Positions 24,047 to 31,536 of a DNA stretch of 64,000 nucleotides are shown one piece after another. The number at the start of each line of letters is the position of its first letter. The stretch's first letter is position 1. The notes below the pieces were generated by a model. It saw only the letters and a program-made list of their open reading frames with translations. It was not told the origin of the DNA and did not search any database. The stretch is from Woeseia sp. (GTDB lineage: Bacteria > Pseudomonadota > Gammaproteobacteria > Steroidobacterales > Woeseiaceae). The stretch spans positions 1,054,001 through 1,118,000 of the forward strand of contig JAJFKW010000001.1 in assembly GCA_021773015.1 (NCBI GenBank), written 5' to 3'. A program made the translations under genes and the position numbers.

Positions 24047-24856
24047 CTATGCGGACATCCCGGACTGGTAGAGAAGTCGCCTCAGAAGTCCCGGGGTAAA
24101 GCCAGTGAAATCTTTCACAGCGCGGGTCATGTGACTTTGGTCGGCAAAACCCGCCGAGTTTGATGAACCGACCGGCGTATCTCCGTTCATTAGCTGTTTT
24201 ATTGCCAGACCCACCATAGCGCGACGTCGATAGGCAGAAATTGAGACACCAAAATGGCGGCTAAACACTCTGGTCAAATGCGTTCTATGTACACCCGCAT
24301 CGTCAGCCGCTGATCCAACCAGCACTTTAGACGGAGTATCATCAATACTCTGCTTGATCTTCACTAACCATGCCGGTGGCACGCCCCGTACACTACTCTC
24401 TTTTGATGCTCCGAGAGGCAATACAACACCCCAAAATGCATCTTCGACATCGAGCGCCGTTGAGGAAAACGAATCGGATAGGTGGCGAACTACAGCACCG
24501 ACTAAAATTTCGGTACGAACACGATCACGCCACAGCCAGGGTTTGCCGGGATTACTCAATGCGAGCTCCGCAGCGCACGAATCGTCATTTAGATCAAAGG
24601 CCAAGATAAGTGCACCGTCTGGGCCAAATCTGACGGCGTGTTCCGCACCTCGAGGTTTTACCGCGACACTATTACGTGCAATGCAACACCTGTCCCGACC
24701 GACGTATTCGCTGAAGCCGCCTGAGAGCAGGAATGACACCTGGGCAGTGGAATGCCCATGCCATGCCTGAGCGTATGACGGCGGATACCAAATAAGCCTG
24801 CATATCATACGATGCGAGCAAAATACGTAACTAATAGAGAGCGCTTGTGTACTCAT
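24047..24856 (-). CDS. AraC-family transcriptional regulator
   Basis: I prefer ATG 24856 (MSTQALSISYVF), giving 269 residues; the frame also opens with a TTG at 24880. An N-terminal cupin-like sensor (QAWHGHSTAQVSFLLSGGFSEYV) precedes two helix-turn-helix units, with GVHRTHLTRVFSRHFGVSISA and SAGFADQSHMTRAVKDFTGF. It follows the Mur-ligase gene by about 36 bases on the same strand and is the last gene of the cyanophycin cluster. It may therefore control that operon, but the effector is unknown. Confidence 0.87.
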   Translation of the reverse strand: MSTQALSISYVFCSHRMICRLIWYPPSYAQAWHGHSTAQVSFLLSGGFSEYVGRDRCCIARNSVAVKPRGAEHAVRFGPDGALILAFDLNDDSCAAELALSNPGKPWLWRDRVRTEILVGAVVRHLSDSFSSTALDVEDAFWGVVLPLGASKESSVRGVPPAWLVKIKQSIDDTPSKVLVGSAADDAGVHRTHLTRVFSRHFGVSISAYRRRAMVGLAIKQLMNGDTPVGSSNSAGFADQSHMTRAVKDFTGFTPGLLRRLLYQSGMSA

Positions 24857-24892
24857 CACTGTTTGCTCTGCGTTGTTCAAATCAACACGAAT

Positions 24893-26605
24893 TCACTCGT
24901 ATGTTGTCTTGTCCGTCAGCGATTCAAGTCTTTCAAGAATGGGTTTGCTGCCACCGAGCGCCAGCATAATCACTAGGTCGCCCGCTTCGGCCCACTCAAG
25001 TGCGGCGTCCAGCGAATCCAACTCTTCCATAAAGTGTTTGATCTGCGTTTGCTCTGATCCGCAACTCAGTAATTCGTCTTTAATCATTTCGAAGACAGCG
25101 CCTTGCTCACGGCCTCGTGCGTACGCTTCTAACTCAGAAACGTTGACAGCGTCCAAGCCGATCGCCCAAGCACTGCGCGCTAGTTCACGAATCGAATCGT
25201 CCGTCCGATCACCAGCTTGCCCAAACGAAAGTAACCGGCGCTTGGCTGGAATTGCCCGCGCCATATCAAACAGGGCCTGCATTGCATGCGGATTGTGCGC
25301 GAAGTCGACCAGCACTTTGAAACCATCGATTGAATAGACGTTACAACGCCCTGGGTTTTCGTCCTGTGACATGCTTTTCAGCCCAGCCGCAACATCCGCC
25401 AATTCGATTCCTAAGCCGTTGGTAAAAGCGGCTGCCGCCAATGCATTAGCGACATTGTGCTTCGCAGCTCCACCCAGCGTGATTGGTACTTCTTCGCTCC
25501 GGCAAATCAATTGCTGATCGTCAGCCGTTAGGCGCAATAGATCGCCGTTATCTTCTACAAACGCCGTGCCGCTTGCCGCAGTATGAATGTTTACCACTGC
25601 GTTGGTTGCTTCAAGACTGAACCACACGATTGTGCCGGAAAATTCCGCCGACTTAGCGATCAGCAGCGGATCGTCCGCATTTAGTATCAGAACGCCCTGT
25701 TTTTCGACGGCCCGACTGACAATCCATTTGATGTCCATTAGCTCATGCAAGTTTTGCGAGCCGAAGTCGCCTAAATGGTCCTCCGCAATATTCGTAATCA
25801 ATGCGGCATTTGCTTGATTGACGCCTAACCCACGCCGCAACAGGCCGCCACGTGCGGTTTCCAACACCGCGATGTCCACCTCTTTCTCACGCAACACGCT
25901 GCGAGCACCTCCTGGCCCAGACCAATCACCACAATCCAGGATTCGATCATTTACGGCAATCCAATCGGTAGAGCTCATACCGACGTTCAATCCGCAGCCA
26001 CGCAAAATGTGCTTACAAAGTCGCGCCGTCGTCGTCTTGCCATTCGTGCCGGTGATGAGACCCGTAGGAACATCGTGAATTCCTGCCCAATCCAAACGAT
26101 TTGGGTCGGGTAGTTCGCGAAAAGGCCACGTCCTCGAACCGCTGCCCAAGCCAACTGACACTTCATCGTCGTCCCAAAGAAATGCGACGTTATGCGCCTC
26201 TGCGGCTTCACCCAGTTGCAGCAAAGATGGGTTAGCCTCTGCTGCAATCGCCGTTCGAATCTCTAGCGCTGCATCATCCAGGTTCTTGAAACTGTATTCG
26301 CCATCCGGATCCGGGAGGTCGAACTCTGCTACACAACAGGCCCACGCCCACTCGTTAATGGCCGATGCCGCGTACAGCAGGTCAACGGGTGCAGAAAATG
26401 CCAGGCTAACCCCCCCTGCAAGGGGCCAGTGCCGCGTCTCTTCGTCGCCCCATGCAATGGCATCCAGCATTTGCCTAACGTGGCGCTCCCATACCGGAAT
26501 CAACTGCCTCGTCTCAGCAGCTGAACAGCGAATATCCAAAATGGAACCAGGTTTGTTCCAGAGTAGACTGGGACCGGTTAATCGGCGCGCCTCGAGAAAT
26601 TCCAC
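24893..26605 (-). CDS. Mur ligase-type protein, cyanophycin synthetase paralogue lacking ATP-grasp
   Basis: This 570-residue protein starts with GTG. Its first ~180 residues are a domain I cannot name. From GTNGKTTTARL (P-loop, Gly186-Lys190) on, it is a Mur ligase. It follows the ligase half of the neighbouring synthetase step by step: GMSSTDW against GLTSTDG, VLETARGGLLRRGLG against VMETARGGMLRGGLG, then NADDP and DFAHNPHAM. No ATP-grasp domain is present, so it cannot make cyanophycin alone. Similar second genes have been noted beside cphA in other heterotrophs (called cphA' in some reports), with no role I know of. It lies 76 bases after cphA on the same strand. It may ligate an amino acid to the dipeptide or act as a partner subunit. 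Confidence 0.82.
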   Translation of the reverse strand: MEFLEARRLTGPSLLWNKPGSILDIRCSAAETRQLIPVWERHVRQMLDAIAWGDEETRHWPLAGGVSLAFSAPVDLLYAASAINEWAWACCVAEFDLPDPDGEYSFKNLDDAALEIRTAIAAEANPSLLQLGEAAEAHNVAFLWDDDEVSVGLGSGSRTWPFRELPDPNRLDWAGIHDVPTGLITGTNGKTTTARLCKHILRGCGLNVGMSSTDWIAVNDRILDCGDWSGPGGARSVLREKEVDIAVLETARGGLLRRGLGVNQANAALITNIAEDHLGDFGSQNLHELMDIKWIVSRAVEKQGVLILNADDPLLIAKSAEFSGTIVWFSLEATNAVVNIHTAASGTAFVEDNGDLLRLTADDQQLICRSEEVPITLGGAAKHNVANALAAAAFTNGLGIELADVAAGLKSMSQDENPGRCNVYSIDGFKVLVDFAHNPHAMQALFDMARAIPAKRRLLSFGQAGDRTDDSIRELARSAWAIGLDAVNVSELEAYARGREQGAVFEMIKDELLSCGSEQTQIKHFMEELDSLDAALEWAEAGDLVIMLALGGSKPILERLESLTDKTTYE

Positions 26606-26681: not shown

Positions 26682-29468
26682 TTAATCCCCTGCTTCACGC
26701 GCGATTCTGACGCCGCGCTCGTCACTAATAATTTCGAGGCTCTCGTCAAAACTAAAGTCATCCGTTTCAGGCAACTCCATTGCGGCGACTGTTTTCTTAG
26801 CGCCCTCTTCGACCTTAGCTTCAGAATTGAAATAAATAATCTGTTTCCAAGTGCGCTTGATGTTATCTGCCAACACCAGAATGAGATCGCCCGGTGCTGC
26901 ATTCTGTAACGCCGTGCTGGTCGCTTCTTGCTCGTCCGGTATTACTTCAATGCGATTGGATTCAACACCCATCTCCAAAAGTTTGTTCTTTAGCATCACA
27001 CCAATTTCGTCTTTTCCGCGGCCGCGTCGGTTGTCATCACAGCGGCAAATAAAGTGGTCAAAATGGCCCGCCGCGATTTCCGCTATCTCGCGAATATCCT
27101 CGTCACGCCGGTCTCCGGGAGCAGACAGTACGACTGTTCGCCGCCCATCCGTGTCGAAGCGGTCTACCAGGTTGCACATCGCGCGCACGGCAGCCGGGTT
27201 GTGGGCGTAATCCAGAATGACTTTGAACGGATGCTCGTCGTAGATATTCATGCGCCCTGGCGCCTGGAAGAACGTTGAATCGAAGGTTCGCAGACCGTGA
27301 CGAATATCCTCTAGGCTTATGCCCATGTTTAGCGCCAACGCGGCGGCGAACATTGCATTTTGAACGTTATGCAGTGCCCGTCCTTCAATGGTGGCGGGAA
27401 TTAAGTGCGTCCACAAAAGTGGCGTATGACCCTCATTATCATAGATCGTAATCATATGACCGTTCATGCCCTCCTCGAGCACGAACGCTTGTCCGCCAGC
27501 GCGAATATGCTGCTTCACTAGCGGGTGGGCCGGATTCATCGTGACGTAGCTGAGAATTTCCGCCCGCGTATAGTCCGCCATTTGCAAACAGTGAGGATCG
27601 TCCGCATTCAACACCGCCGCCTTTTGGGCGATCTCAACCGGTACGCGCTTAATTTCGGCAAGTTGCTCCAGGGTATCAATACCTCGCAAGCCAAGGTGAT
27701 CCGCTGTCACATTCAAACAGCAGGCCACATCGCAATCCTGAAAACCGAGTCCGCCACGCAACATACCGCCGCGCGCGGTTTCCATGACCGCCGCATCGAC
27801 GGATGGGTCGCGCAAAATCATCTTTGCCGAGACAGGACCCGTCATATCGCCTGATACGCTGAGCTGACCATCAATGTAAACACCGTCAGTGGATGTCAGG
27901 CCGACGGTGTAACCCGTCATCTTGAGGATGTGCGCCAACATGCGCGAGGTTGTCGTTTTGCCGTTGGTGCCAGTCACGGCAGCGATCGGAATTCGGCTTG
28001 ATTGATCCGCTGGAAACAACATGTCGATAACGGGTCCGGCAACGTCACGCGCCGTCCCCTCGCTTGGCGCAACATGCATGCGAAACCCCGGACCCGCGTT
28101 GACTTCGCAAATACCGCCGCCGGCATCGCGATAAGACTCGGTGATATCTTTGGTCAGGAAATCGACGCCACCGATATCCAGGCCGATTGCATTAATCGTG
28201 CGCTCCGCCATCTCGCGATTATCTGGATGTATCGTATCGGTCACGTCAATTGCCGTTCCACCTGTCGACAGGTTCGCTGTTGAGCGAAGATAAACAGCCT
28301 CACCTTCTGTTGGCACCGTCTCGCGGTCATACCCAAGCTTTTTCAAGAGTCTTTCCGCTTGGTGATCGAACTCAAGGCGGGTGAGAACCTTTTCGTGCCC
28401 GACGCCACGGCGTGGATCTTGATTCACAATATCAACTAACTGTTCAATCGTGTGCTTGCCGTCACCGACAACGTGACCCGGCATACGCTTCGCAGCAGCA
28501 ACGAGCTTGCCATTGACAACCAGCAGCCGGTGATCATAGCCCTCGAGAAAACTTTCCACGACGATACTTCGACCGTGCTCGCGCGCTTTGTCGAATGCCA
28601 CTTCGACTTCTTCGGCACTTTTTAAATTAATTGAAACACCGCGGCCATGATTTCCGGACAACGGTTTTAAGACAACGGGGAAACCAATTCGCTCCGCCGC
28701 GCGTTTAGCGTCTCGCGACGAGCGAACTACATACTGTTTCGGCACGGGCAACCCTAGGTCGCGCAGAATACTATTGGTCTCTTCTTTATCGGATGCCAAC
28801 TCGACTGCGATATTGCTGGTCCGCCCTGTCGTTGTTGCCTGTATGCGATGTTGATATCGGCCATGCCCAAACTGCACCAGACTTTGGCGATTGAGTCGTA
28901 TCCAGGGAATACCTCGCAACTCAGCCGCTTCGACCAATGAGGCGGTACTGGGACCAAATGCGCGACGCTGCGCGTATCGAATAAAGCTGTCGCGTTCCTC
29001 GGGAAAATCCCAATCGGCATCCGGCGCCGCTGCGGGCTTGACGTCGTCTGGAAGCAAACTATGAATAAGCGATAGCGCTAGCTGGCTGGATTCACGGCCG
29101 ACTTCCGCATCTTTGTATTGAAACACCATATTGTAATGGCCTGGCTGACCCTCTATCGAGCGCGTACGCCCGAACGTAACGCTTGAACCGGCCACATTCT
29201 GCAACTCGATGGCAACATGTTCCATGACATGCCCAAGCCAGGTCCCCTCGTCCTCCCGCAACCGCCGAACAAATCCACCCGGCTCGCGATAGGAACAACC
29301 ATGCTCGTGTAATCCTGGGAGCGCCTCAATCAACGGCTCGACAAATGTCTTGCCCAGCTTCCCAGTTGGCCACTCCTCGAGCACGCCGAGATCGAGCACA
29401 TGCCGAATTACCGGAAAGTGCGCATATATGTTCGGGCCAACGTAAACGTTGGTACTCACTATTTTCAT
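26682..29468 (-). CDS. cphA: Cyanophycin synthetase
   Basis: The 928 residues contain the N domain (NVYVGPNIYAHFPVIRHVL), a central ATP-grasp domain (GFPVVLKPLSGNHGRGVSI, CEVNAGPGFRMHVAPSEG) and a C-terminal Mur ligase domain with its P-loop at 500-506 (GTNGKTT). This is the CphA1 architecture. Such enzymes extend cyanophycin by adding Asp to the chain and then Arg to the Asp side chain, each step using ATP. GGAG precedes the ATG at 29468. The C-terminal end runs ~40 residues past the ligase domain as an acidic tail. It lies between the cyanophycinase gene (35 bases upstream) and its paralogue (76 bases downstream). Confidence 0.95.
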   Translation of the reverse strand: MKIVSTNVYVGPNIYAHFPVIRHVLDLGVLEEWPTGKLGKTFVEPLIEALPGLHEHGCSYREPGGFVRRLREDEGTWLGHVMEHVAIELQNVAGSSVTFGRTRSIEGQPGHYNMVFQYKDAEVGRESSQLALSLIHSLLPDDVKPAAAPDADWDFPEERDSFIRYAQRRAFGPSTASLVEAAELRGIPWIRLNRQSLVQFGHGRYQHRIQATTTGRTSNIAVELASDKEETNSILRDLGLPVPKQYVVRSSRDAKRAAERIGFPVVLKPLSGNHGRGVSINLKSAEEVEVAFDKAREHGRSIVVESFLEGYDHRLLVVNGKLVAAAKRMPGHVVGDGKHTIEQLVDIVNQDPRRGVGHEKVLTRLEFDHQAERLLKKLGYDRETVPTEGEAVYLRSTANLSTGGTAIDVTDTIHPDNREMAERTINAIGLDIGGVDFLTKDITESYRDAGGGICEVNAGPGFRMHVAPSEGTARDVAGPVIDMLFPADQSSRIPIAAVTGTNGKTTTSRMLAHILKMTGYTVGLTSTDGVYIDGQLSVSGDMTGPVSAKMILRDPSVDAAVMETARGGMLRGGLGFQDCDVACCLNVTADHLGLRGIDTLEQLAEIKRVPVEIAQKAAVLNADDPHCLQMADYTRAEILSYVTMNPAHPLVKQHIRAGGQAFVLEEGMNGHMITIYDNEGHTPLLWTHLIPATIEGRALHNVQNAMFAAALALNMGISLEDIRHGLRTFDSTFFQAPGRMNIYDEHPFKVILDYAHNPAAVRAMCNLVDRFDTDGRRTVVLSAPGDRRDEDIREIAEIAAGHFDHFICRCDDNRRGRGKDEIGVMLKNKLLEMGVESNRIEVIPDEQEATSTALQNAAPGDLILVLADNIKRTWKQIIYFNSEAKVEEGAKKTVAAMELPETDDFSFDESLEIISDERGVRIAREAGD

Positions 29469-29503: not shown

Positions 29504-30325
29504 TTAGTCTGGAGATGCTAGCCTTGATTCTATTCTATATTTGCCGCCAGAAATAAGAATATGTAATTTGACGCCGATCAAACTGACTGGTTCTCCACGG
29601 CGAGCCGAATCCATTGAAGAATGTGTCAGGTCACTGGGGTCGATGATTGTGATACCGCCACTGCCGACAACTTCCAGTTCGTCACCTGGCTTGATAAATG
29701 CAGCCGTATCTTCGTCAAGACCGACGCCGACGGCGAACGGATTGTACGCCAACGCCGTCAGCAATCGGCCCACCCTATCTCGTTGCCGGAAGTGTTGGTC
29801 GATAATGAAATTGTTGGTCAGCCCAAGACCAGGCGCAAGCGTCACCATGTCCGGACTGGGCGTACTGCCCTCATGTCCACCGGCAATCATGTGCTCTGGC
29901 ATGAACGCCGCGCCAGCAGACGTACCTGCGACATGCATTCCTGCCGCGTTGCGACGTCGAATAGCCTGCGCCACGTCCGTTCCACCCAACGTCGTCGATA
30001 AGCGAAGCTGATTACCACCTGTCATGAATACCCCATCGGACTTGTCGATGTAGTTAAGATACCTTTGGTTCCCGCAATCTTCTCGGGTCAGTATTTGTAA
30101 AACTTTGGCGTGTCGAATGCCGAGTTTTCGAAATAGCTTTTCGTAATTGCGGCCAGTGTCTTCCAACTCAGAGGCCGTCGGAATGATTGCTATGCGAGCG
30201 CTTCGACCACCGCAGACCTCAACGAACTTGTCGAGAATCTCCGGATTGCCGAATTTCTCCTCCGCGCCGCCGATTGGAATCACATATCCACGGTTAGAAT
30301 TGTCAGAATTATTTGATGGGCACAT
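29504..30325 (-). CDS. cphB: Cyanophycinase
   Basis: This 273-residue serine peptidase is of the S51 family. The nucleophile is Ser136 in VAGTSAGAAFMPEHMI, four positions from Ser132 of the Synechocystis enzyme as I recall it. GYVIPIGGAEEKF at the N-terminus and DGVFMTGGNQLRLS are conserved, as is GVGLDEDTAAF. It cuts cyanophycin to beta-Asp-Arg dipeptides inside the cell (no signal peptide is seen). It lies 53 bases after the isoaspartyl dipeptidase gene and 35 before cphA. Confidence 0.94.
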   Translation of the reverse strand: MCPSNNSDNSNRGYVIPIGGAEEKFGNPEILDKFVEVCGGRSARIAIIPTASELEDTGRNYEKLFRKLGIRHAKVLQILTREDCGNQRYLNYIDKSDGVFMTGGNQLRLSTTLGGTDVAQAIRRRNAAGMHVAGTSAGAAFMPEHMIAGGHEGSTPSPDMVTLAPGLGLTNNFIIDQHFRQRDRVGRLLTALAYNPFAVGVGLDEDTAAFIKPGDELEVVGSGGITIIDPSDLTHSSMDSARRGEPVSLIGVKLHILISGGKYRIESRLASPD

Positions 30326-30378: not shown

Positions 30379-31536
30379 TTACTCGAATTGACCAGATACC
30401 TGCTGTAATCGATCTTGCACGTGCCAGACACCACCGGCCATCACATCTGTTATCTGATGGGTTTCGTCTAGTGCAACTAGGTCCGCAATATTGCCGACTT
30501 GAATTCGACCTCGGTCACGAAGCCTAAGAATATCGGCGACATTGCTGGTGAATGCAGGCAACACATCTGCTAGCGGCACGCCCCGTCGCAACAGGCTTTG
30601 AATCGTTAGCAACAGCAAATTCGGCTTGCCGATATCCATTTGCGTTAGCTCGCCTTTTTCGTCGAATACTGGCAAACAGCCGCCGCCATCCGAACTTACG
30701 GTAATCAATTCGTTTGGCGCCGCGGATTCAAGGTAACGAATCAAGGCATCTTCCGCCGCATAACCATCTTCCTCTTCGGCGACCGGAAACGCCGTGATAT
30801 CGACAGTGCAGCCTTGACTCGCGAGATCGATTGACTCGTCAAATAACGCACTACGTCGATTGATGTGCGTGGGATTAAAAATTCGAGCAGGGATTTCACT
30901 ACTCGCCAGCGCTTGGCGGACCAAATCAAGTCCGCGTGAACCGTCGCCTAGATGAAGATGCAGGATACCCGCTTTGCCCGTAATGAGGCCCGCAACATGC
31001 GCCTCACTGGCCAATCGCAACAGCTCGTCTAATGTTGGCTGACTGGACCGGTGGTCGCTGAGCGCAACTTCGCCAACCCCGATTATCGGCTCTACGAACA
31101 CGATGTCGTTGCGAACACTGCCGGTCAGCGTCGTCGGCGGAATATGGTAGCCGCCGGTATGGCACCATGCGCCAAGTCCCTCCTCGCGCAAGCCATTCGC
31201 CTGCGCGACCAACGACCGCGTGTCCCGGGTCGTATCGTCGGTACCCAAAACGCCAACGACAGCGGTGACACCAGCGCTCGTAAACACACTCAGCGGTACG
31301 GGCGGCACCCTGCTGCTGAAACCGGATTCGCCACCGCCGCCAGTCAGGTGCGCGTGACCGTCGATAAGTCCTGGCACGACGCGCTTGCCATCGAAGTCTA
31401 TTTCTTGTGCAGCTGGCGTTGCCAGCGCTTCGCGACGATCGTCGATCGCTAACAAACGGCCACCGCCAATCAACAGATGTTTGATGCCTAGGTCTTCAGG
31501 GGCAAAAACGTGGGCATTGGTAATGAGATGTAACAA
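30379..31536 (-). CDS. iadA: Isoaspartyl dipeptidase
   Basis: The 385-residue product is an amidohydrolase-superfamily metallopeptidase. GLIDGHAHLTGGGGESG carries the metal-binding HxH and the family's glycine run. ITVSSDGGGCLPVF and the C-terminal LRDRGRIQVGNIADLV agree. It splits beta-aspartyl dipeptides, and here would convert the beta-Asp-Arg released by cyanophycinase to aspartate and arginine. The only usual start in frame is TTG at 31536; no ATG lies between it and an upstream stop. It is the first gene of the cyanophycin cluster and is divergent from queF, 73 bases away. Confidence 0.93.
   Translation of the reverse strand: MLHLITNAHVFAPEDLGIKHLLIGGGRLLAIDDRREALATPAAQEIDFDGKRVVPGLIDGHAHLTGGGGESGFSSRVPPVPLSVFTSAGVTAVVGVLGTDDTTRDTRSLVAQANGLREEGLGAWCHTGGYHIPPTTLTGSVRNDIVFVEPIIGVGEVALSDHRSSQPTLDELLRLASEAHVAGLITGKAGILHLHLGDGSRGLDLVRQALASSEIPARIFNPTHINRRSALFDESIDLASQGCTVDITAFPVAEEEDGYAAEDALIRYLESAAPNELITVSSDGGGCLPVFDEKGELTQMDIGKPNLLLLTIQSLLRRGVPLADVLPAFTSNVADILRLRDRGRIQVGNIADLVALDETHQITDVMAGGVWHVQDRLQQVSGQFE

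Follow-up and report, generated by a model that had tools for sequence, protein, structure and literature searches.

Our results revealed that in one clade of cyanophycin synthetases (CphA) the synthetase gene is paired with the gene of a second ligase, which we call CphX (a working name coined in the present analysis), and that the CphAs so paired carry a conserved C-terminal tail ending in Asp. Cyanophycin is a nitrogen-storage polymer, and the cphA-cphX pair, taken together with the Asp-ended tail, suggests a second answer to the question of how its chains start, one open to direct testing. We put forward, as a tentative possibility, that the cyanophycin of this tail-bearing clade is protein-primed: CphX would put Arg on the side chain of the synthetase's C-terminal Asp, and the polymer would grow there. 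The pairing with an Asp-ended tail is new here, since neither a CphX-type ligase nor such a tail is described in the literature searched, a search that left subscription journals, preprints and supplements outside its scope. In that literature, PMC10206079 covers cphA1, cyanophycinase, iadA and iaaA, and a 2016 paper on Lysobacter capsici (PMC4742617) reports a two-gene cphA-cphB cluster; these papers and PMC9262961 are all cited from excerpts.

In the window (the whole stretch of 64,000 nucleotides analyzed here) the genes lie in the order iadA-cphB-cphA-cphX, all co-directional and with cphX last (Table 1), so that the tie to cyanophycin genes made in the preliminary description holds. The cphX frame starts with GTG and runs for 570 codons on the minus strand. 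An AraC-type regulator gene lies 12 bases downstream of cphX (window positions 24047-24880, minus strand); it was rejected as a member of the system, being absent from 30 other large paired loci.

Table 1. Features of the cphA-cphX locus in window coordinates, and related ligase genes at other loci.
Feature	Position	Strand	Basis
cphX, N-M ligase, CphA paralogue without ATP-grasp, 570 aa	24893..26605	-	ORF, Mur_ligase_M/_C, orthologues
CphX residues 1-124, probable diverged CphA-type N domain without HxxEH	26234..26605	-	hhalign, structure model, motif count
CphX residues 125-158, possible stub of the CphA G-domain start	26132..26233	-	hhalign with CphA 172-207, weak (7%)
CphX residues 179-549, M (Mur ligase) domain	24959..26071	-	Pfam, NCBIfam, PDB matches, alignment
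CphX P-loop, residues 185-192	26030-26053	-	reading of the sequence
cphA, complete cyanophycin synthetase 1, 928 aa	26682..29468	-	TIGR02068, 1152.6 bits, cut-off 850
CphA N-domain C58-x21-H80-x2-E83-H84, metallopeptidase-like motif	29217..29297	-	motif described in PMC9262961 (excerpts)
CphA residues 884-912, variable linker with predicted disorder	26733..26819	-	pLDDT <50 over 884-928
CphA residues 913-928, IISDERGVRIAREAGD, conserved tail with Asp928 as last residue; putative acceptor or docking peptide for CphX	26685..26732	-	
cphB, cyanophycinase	29504..30325	-	TIGR02069, 258.8 bits, cut-off 126.6
iadA, isoaspartyl dipeptidase	30379..31536	-	TIGR01975, 386.1 bits, cut-off 331.25
Actinobacterial N-M ligases, convergent to cphA	L047:9490-11946, L048:9856-11571, L061:9720-11981	-	

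The preliminary description had taken CphX for a Mur-ligase paralogue of CphA without an ATP-grasp domain, and the domain searches agree with this. Pfam returned Mur_ligase_M (residues 184-393, 6.4e-26) and Mur_ligase_C (419-548, 9.6e-14) only, with no ATP-grasp match. The best NCBIfam family was TIGR02068 (362.9 bits against a cut-off of 850, the M part alone being covered), and the MurE model TIGR01085 stayed below its cut-off (95.9 vs 257.3 bits). Moreover, residues 179-549 matched CphA1 structures in a PDB sequence search and are 37% identical to the M domain of the neighbouring CphA. The P-loop noted earlier at Gly186-Lys190 and the NADDP motif were located by reading at residues 185-192 (TGTNGKTT) and 309-313, respectively.

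By contrast, the roughly 180 N-terminal residues, first described as resembling nothing nameable, can now be given a probable origin. When the N-termini of 31 CphX proteins were compared by hhalign with the N domain of 84 CphAs, residues 1-50 aligned with CphA 1-53 (probability 73%); with a CphA profile of residues 1-885, CphX 1-158 aligned with CphA 1-207 (probability 85%, E 6.8e-6 for one comparison). The far end of this match corresponds to the start of the G domain and is weak when taken alone (CphA 172-207; probability 7%, E 0.0049). An N-terminus derived from the G or the M domain alone was rejected, as hhalign gave it a probability of only 7% or 0.4%. In the AlphaFold2 model of CphX (seven input sequences, mean pLDDT 83) the predicted N-terminal region is CphA1-like and not a novel domain. 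Foldseek ranked CphA1 first for this model (7wae_A, E 1.1e-37), and VIA-align fitted 544-550 residues of the stretch 3-566 to four near-complete CphA1 chains (7txv, 7lgq, 7lgj and 7lg5; Z 31.9-32.9, rmsd 4.2-5.7), with Mur ligases scoring lower (Z 21.8-23.6 among the matches listed). Since the residues past 178 supply at most 392 of those fitted, at least 150 of the first 178 were aligned to CphA1. The residues conserved in the CphX N domain are R7, R8, G11, G65, D75 and G152; HxxEH occurs in the first 250 residues of none of the 71 CphX rows, no His or Cys of the domain is conserved at 85%, and Pfam gave no match before residue 184 at E 0.1. Judged by these alignments and by the model, residues 1-178 are a diverged CphA N domain followed by a short G-domain stub, and CphX is a descendant of CphA that has lost both the ATP-grasp (G) domain and the N-domain peptidase motif.

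The catalytic residues, whose loss would have spoken against an active ligase, are kept. In an M-domain alignment of 71 CphX, 63 tail-bearing CphA (60 paired and three without CphX) and 52 other CphA rows, eleven positions (K190, E249, D276, H277, K293, R420, D434, H437, N438, R467 and R497) are 100% conserved in the CphX and tail-bearing CphA rows, and these, the P-loop and A251-G254 are essentially invariant across all three groups. D276-H277 of CphX should correspond to D585 H586 of SuCphA1, the mutation of which inactivates its M domain (PMC9262961). The CphX M ligase is, on this alignment and the model, apparently active. The faster evolution of CphX (terminal branch 0.25 for the CphX of the window, against 0.093 for its CphA) might be taken to indicate a regulatory subunit without catalysis, but with K190, D276, H277, K293 and R497 present in every CphX row we consider this very improbable. 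Reuse of the dipeptide, one of the roles originally considered, is also unlikely, as is a polymerisation of dipeptides in the manner of CphA2: backbone bonds in CphA are made by the G domain (PMC9262961), and CphX has none.

Other positions differ between CphX and CphA. G233 is found in 70/71 CphX and 0/115 CphAs, and Y495 in 67/71 CphX, 1/63 tail-bearing CphAs and none in the counts shown for other CphAs. R258, present in 71/71 CphX, was discarded as a CphX-only mark because Arg stands there in 4/63 tail-bearing and 8/52 other CphAs; the same applies to S229, to N417 (71 CphX rows, 2 tail-bearing and 11 other CphAs) and to E491 (66/71, 0/63 and 25/52, respectively), which are likewise present in CphAs. 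R258, N417 and E491 are therefore weak marks of specificity, since some CphAs have them. This does not alter the odds of the explanation preferred below, which is built on the tail. R258 probably lies at the acceptor site, where we take MurE work to place it. Note that the region of E491 and Y495, presumed to be that of the nucleophile, differs from that of the tail-bearing CphAs. This difference, together with the general catalytic residues common to both proteins, would suit a second side-chain ligase that either adds another amino acid (e.g. Lys), the addition of a different amino acid being among the roles originally considered, or acts where Asp residues of the polymer are incompletely decorated; its substrate would then have nothing to do with the tail. 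However, such a role leaves the Asp-ended tail of the same CphA clade unexplained, and E491 is common in other CphAs, so that we regard it as unlikely.

The cphX frame is not a chance ORF, since orthologues were found in 30 of the 59 relatives (60 genomes with that of the window), one of them split over two contigs; 29 of these orthologues start in the same region. A CphA match adjoins CphX in 29/30 of these relatives, the exception being G018, where only 23 bases of contig precede the match. Among the 29 relatives that lack CphX, no match was better than 8.6e-12; one of them (G015) has a 54-residue match of 43% identity, which may be a piece of CphA. Among 370 genomes of the class, 20 had a match at 1e-20, nine of them CphX beside CphA and 11 CphA alone, and two further orders gave matches in 23/41 and 24/33 genomes. 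Full-length cases named among the matches listed come from two Acidobacteriota, one Lysobacterales MAG, Lysobacter sp. Root916 and Plesiocystis pacifica; one Gemmatimonadales genome is an additional cphA-cphX case, and in a Lysobacter genome (L038) cphX adjoins cphA. In the 31 large paired loci, some of them cut stretches, cphB was present in 24 and iadA in 12. Three loci of one genus (L125-L127, genomes G225, G103 and G313; genus g74, family f60) have cphA-cphX without an adjoining cphB and a cyanophycinase elsewhere in the genome. In a reduced genome of 1.5 Mb (G484, locus L176) cphA and the cyanophycinase gene are broken, and the cphX match keeps an open frame.

In all these groups, that is Lysobacter, Acidobacteriota, Plesiocystis, the Gemmatimonadales genome and the order of the window, cphX pairs with one CphA clade. 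The CphAs adjoining cphX are at least 57% identical to that of the window over the part read, one broken copy apart; among the remaining CphAs whose 3' end is complete, identity to it does not exceed 48%, except for L054 (57%) and L188-L190 (61-63%), a comparison from which L057, L065, L095 and L100, cut at contig ends, are left out. As to the phylogeny, the 25 paired CphAs fall on a single branch (SH-aLRT 99), to which L054 is sister. Two CphA groups, L036/L121/L122/L178 and ten rows around the window, recur in the CphX tree, and so does L124/L126/L127/L157/L164 (the CphX of L163 is absent from the set); of a fourth group, L035/L037/L038/L040/L123, only L037, L038 and L123 stay together. The two trees thus appear largely congruent, and from this and the pairing we infer that CphX works with the adjacent CphA. 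On a quick tree with a single, long-branched outgroup row (a Mur ligase of the same genome), CphX as a whole needs two changes and the root is unsure; a single origin of CphX is still compatible with this tree. Pairing and tail arise once on the tree, in one clade, so that their many co-occurrences are not independent.

We then come to the tail itself. Paired CphAs end in a variable linker followed by a conserved motif like that of the window, and in the AlphaFold2 model of CphA residues 884-928 are the sole stretch with pLDDT <50. At the protein level, Asp is the last residue in 66 of the 67 distinct paired tails, the exception being the broken cphA of the reduced genome; at the DNA level, with this copy left out, it is the last residue in all 71 distinct tails. 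For the loci fetched after the pattern had been noticed the count is 31/32, with the same miss, and the Gemmatimonadales tail, read last, ends in DSRGVRIAREEHAD and fits the pattern. DxxG[VIL][RF] (DERGVR-like) occurs in 71/71 paired tails, Glu at C-4 in 68/71 and an acidic residue at C-3 in 61/71; the residues seen at C-2 are A, G, S, N and D. In the tree built from 25 paired CphAs, Asp at C-1 and Glu at C-4 never change, against 13 changes at C-2, 8 at C-3 and 11 at C-5, and the length of the spacer between motif and end changes at least 9 times. Since C-1 and C-4 remain unchanged while the spacer varies, the constraint acts on the tail end itself. Moreover, C-3 switches between D and E, and E is never seen at C-1.

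Another possibility could be that the tail is kept for the ribosome-binding site of cphX or for an overlap with it. This is unlikely: the gap to cphX ranges from -175 to +154 (the large overlaps in this range may be start-site errors), tails with a gap >50 still end in Asp, both Asp codons (GAC 42, GAT 29) are used, and so are three stop codons. No second carrier of the tail motif was found in the window's own genome, where the sole extra DNA match to the DERGVR form lies in a frame of 22 codons.

Asp is the last residue of only five among the 76 distinct unpaired tails, those of L054, of a Mur-only protein of L061, and of L188-L190. Only L188-L190 (genomes G446, G432 and G431) have the motif as well, in genomes without a CphX match. 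A remnant of the CphX N domain lies at the end of the L190 cphA, whose product is 93% identical to a paired CphA, and the L189 contig stops 1.2 kb past cphA. These cases suggest either losses too recent for the tail to have decayed or a tail function without CphX. L054 ends in ETED, without the DxxG motif and in a genome without a CphX match. One might argue from L054 and from the three genomes that have kept the tail that it serves this CphA clade in its own right, either as a self-primer on which the synthetase's G and M domains act or as an autoinhibitor, with CphX travelling along; but at least one of the losses, that in L190, looks recent, and we hold this reading to be improbable.

How cyanophycin chains start was unclear until the N domain of CphA1 was shown to cut primers, and the CxnHxxEH motif confers primer independence on SuCphA1 (PMC9262961). 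The same source gives the motif CxnHxxEH for 83% of CphA1 and describes it in the form Cx19HxxEH, two residues shorter than the C-x21-HxxEH form of the window's CphA and of 62/63 tail-bearing CphAs overall. All 63 full-length tail-bearing CphAs keep CxnHxxEH. We therefore set aside the idea of CphX as the primer maker for a peptidase-less CphA; a second route of priming would supplement the existing one and not replace it. In several tandem cphA pairs (L042, L045, L068, L144-L146 and L148) no CxnHxxEH is present within the first 140 residues of the downstream copy (856-882 aa), but the upstream copy, which is shorter (660-778 aa), carries the motif, as though the peptidase had been transferred to the partner protein.

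Since the M domain of CphA adds Arg to the chain-terminal Asp, the Asp-ended tail resembles a built-in acceptor and, by this analogy, looks like one. We propose that the N domain of CphX would grip the DERGVR motif of the CphA tail and that its M domain would couple the Asp928 side chain to Arg or a different amino acid. The charged end would then be extended by the G domain of CphA, the chains starting on the enzyme, and the peptidase site in the N domain of the tail-bearing CphAs may later release them. Domain architecture, conservation and pairing are what we observe; the contact, the reaction, the amino acid and the priming are all what we infer. In support of tail charging, the tail is disordered in the model, the ligase residues of CphX are invariant, and so is R258 within CphX; an Asp-only C-1, in tails that switch between D and E at C-3, is as expected of a substrate residue. 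The release step fits the CxnHxxEH kept by all tail-bearing CphAs. That CphX charges the terminal Asp, and so yields a protein primer, seems to us quite possible without being probable. Of the roles first suggested, modification of the polymer ends comes closest to this, but the evidence points to the synthetase's own C-terminal end.

Several observations argue against charging: three tail-bearing genomes lack a CphX match, one of them with a CphX remnant, L054 ends in ETED with neither CphX nor the DxxG motif, and the pairing and the tail share one origin. We know of no case in which a single Arg on a protein Asp acts as primer. Furthermore, the HxxEH motif implies that tail-bearing CphAs may already make their own primers, and free beta-Asp-Arg failed to prime TmCphA1 (both from the excerpts of PMC9262961). 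In the main rival reading the tail would only tether CphX, which would then act on the polymer by ligating extra Arg, repairing gaps or finishing the ends. The conserved DERGVR block favours docking too: DxxG[VIL][RF] is conserved apart from the tail end, CphX keeps an N-like domain of the kind that binds polymer in CphA1 (PMC9262961), and the CphX and CphA trees are largely congruent. Yet a strict C-terminal Asp, never Glu, behind a spacer of varying length exceeds the needs of docking by charge and favours a substrate, which makes tethering alone, in our view, a somewhat less likely possibility than charging. If charging of the tail is true, protein priming by CphX would mean that a Mur ligase works on the terminus of a protein; in any event, a storage pathway of interest to biotechnology gains a partner gene in cphX.

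Finally, we compared CphX with known systems. CphA1 (TIGR02068; PDB 7LG5, 7LGQ, 7WAE) has, like CphX, an N-like and an M domain in the same order, whereas CphX lacks the ATP-grasp G domain, has no HxxEH in its N domain and scores below the family cut-off (363 bits vs 850). In CphA2, the domain that joins beta-Asp-Arg dipeptides is the G domain. CphX, without this backbone-joining domain, is set apart by the description of CphA2, which repolymerises beta-Asp-Arg in a backbone reaction; this cyanobacterial relative of CphA1 is said to use a single active site (PMC10206079 and PMC9262961, excerpts). MurE and other Mur ligases share Mur_ligase_M and Mur_ligase_C with CphX, which differs from MurE in its CphA-type N domain, its place beside cphA and its low TIGR01085 score. 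Actinobacterial N-M proteins encoded beside cphA (L047, L048 and L061) also have an M domain without ATP-grasp and, by reading, a CphA-like start GPNLYF, S-G-P-x-G-A, and Lys at the place of R258; unlike CphX, they form a separate branch, lie on the strand opposite to cphA and have a neighbouring CphA without an Asp end. A Duganella protein of 688 aa (L081:9217-11283, minus strand), also encoded opposite to cphA, has a CphA-like N-terminus, a shortened middle and an M domain. Glycogenin is an example of protein priming, its polymer being begun on a protein side chain. If our best explanation holds, cyanophycin of the tail-bearing clade would likewise be started on a side chain, although glycogenin makes a sugar polymer and the enzymes are unrelated.
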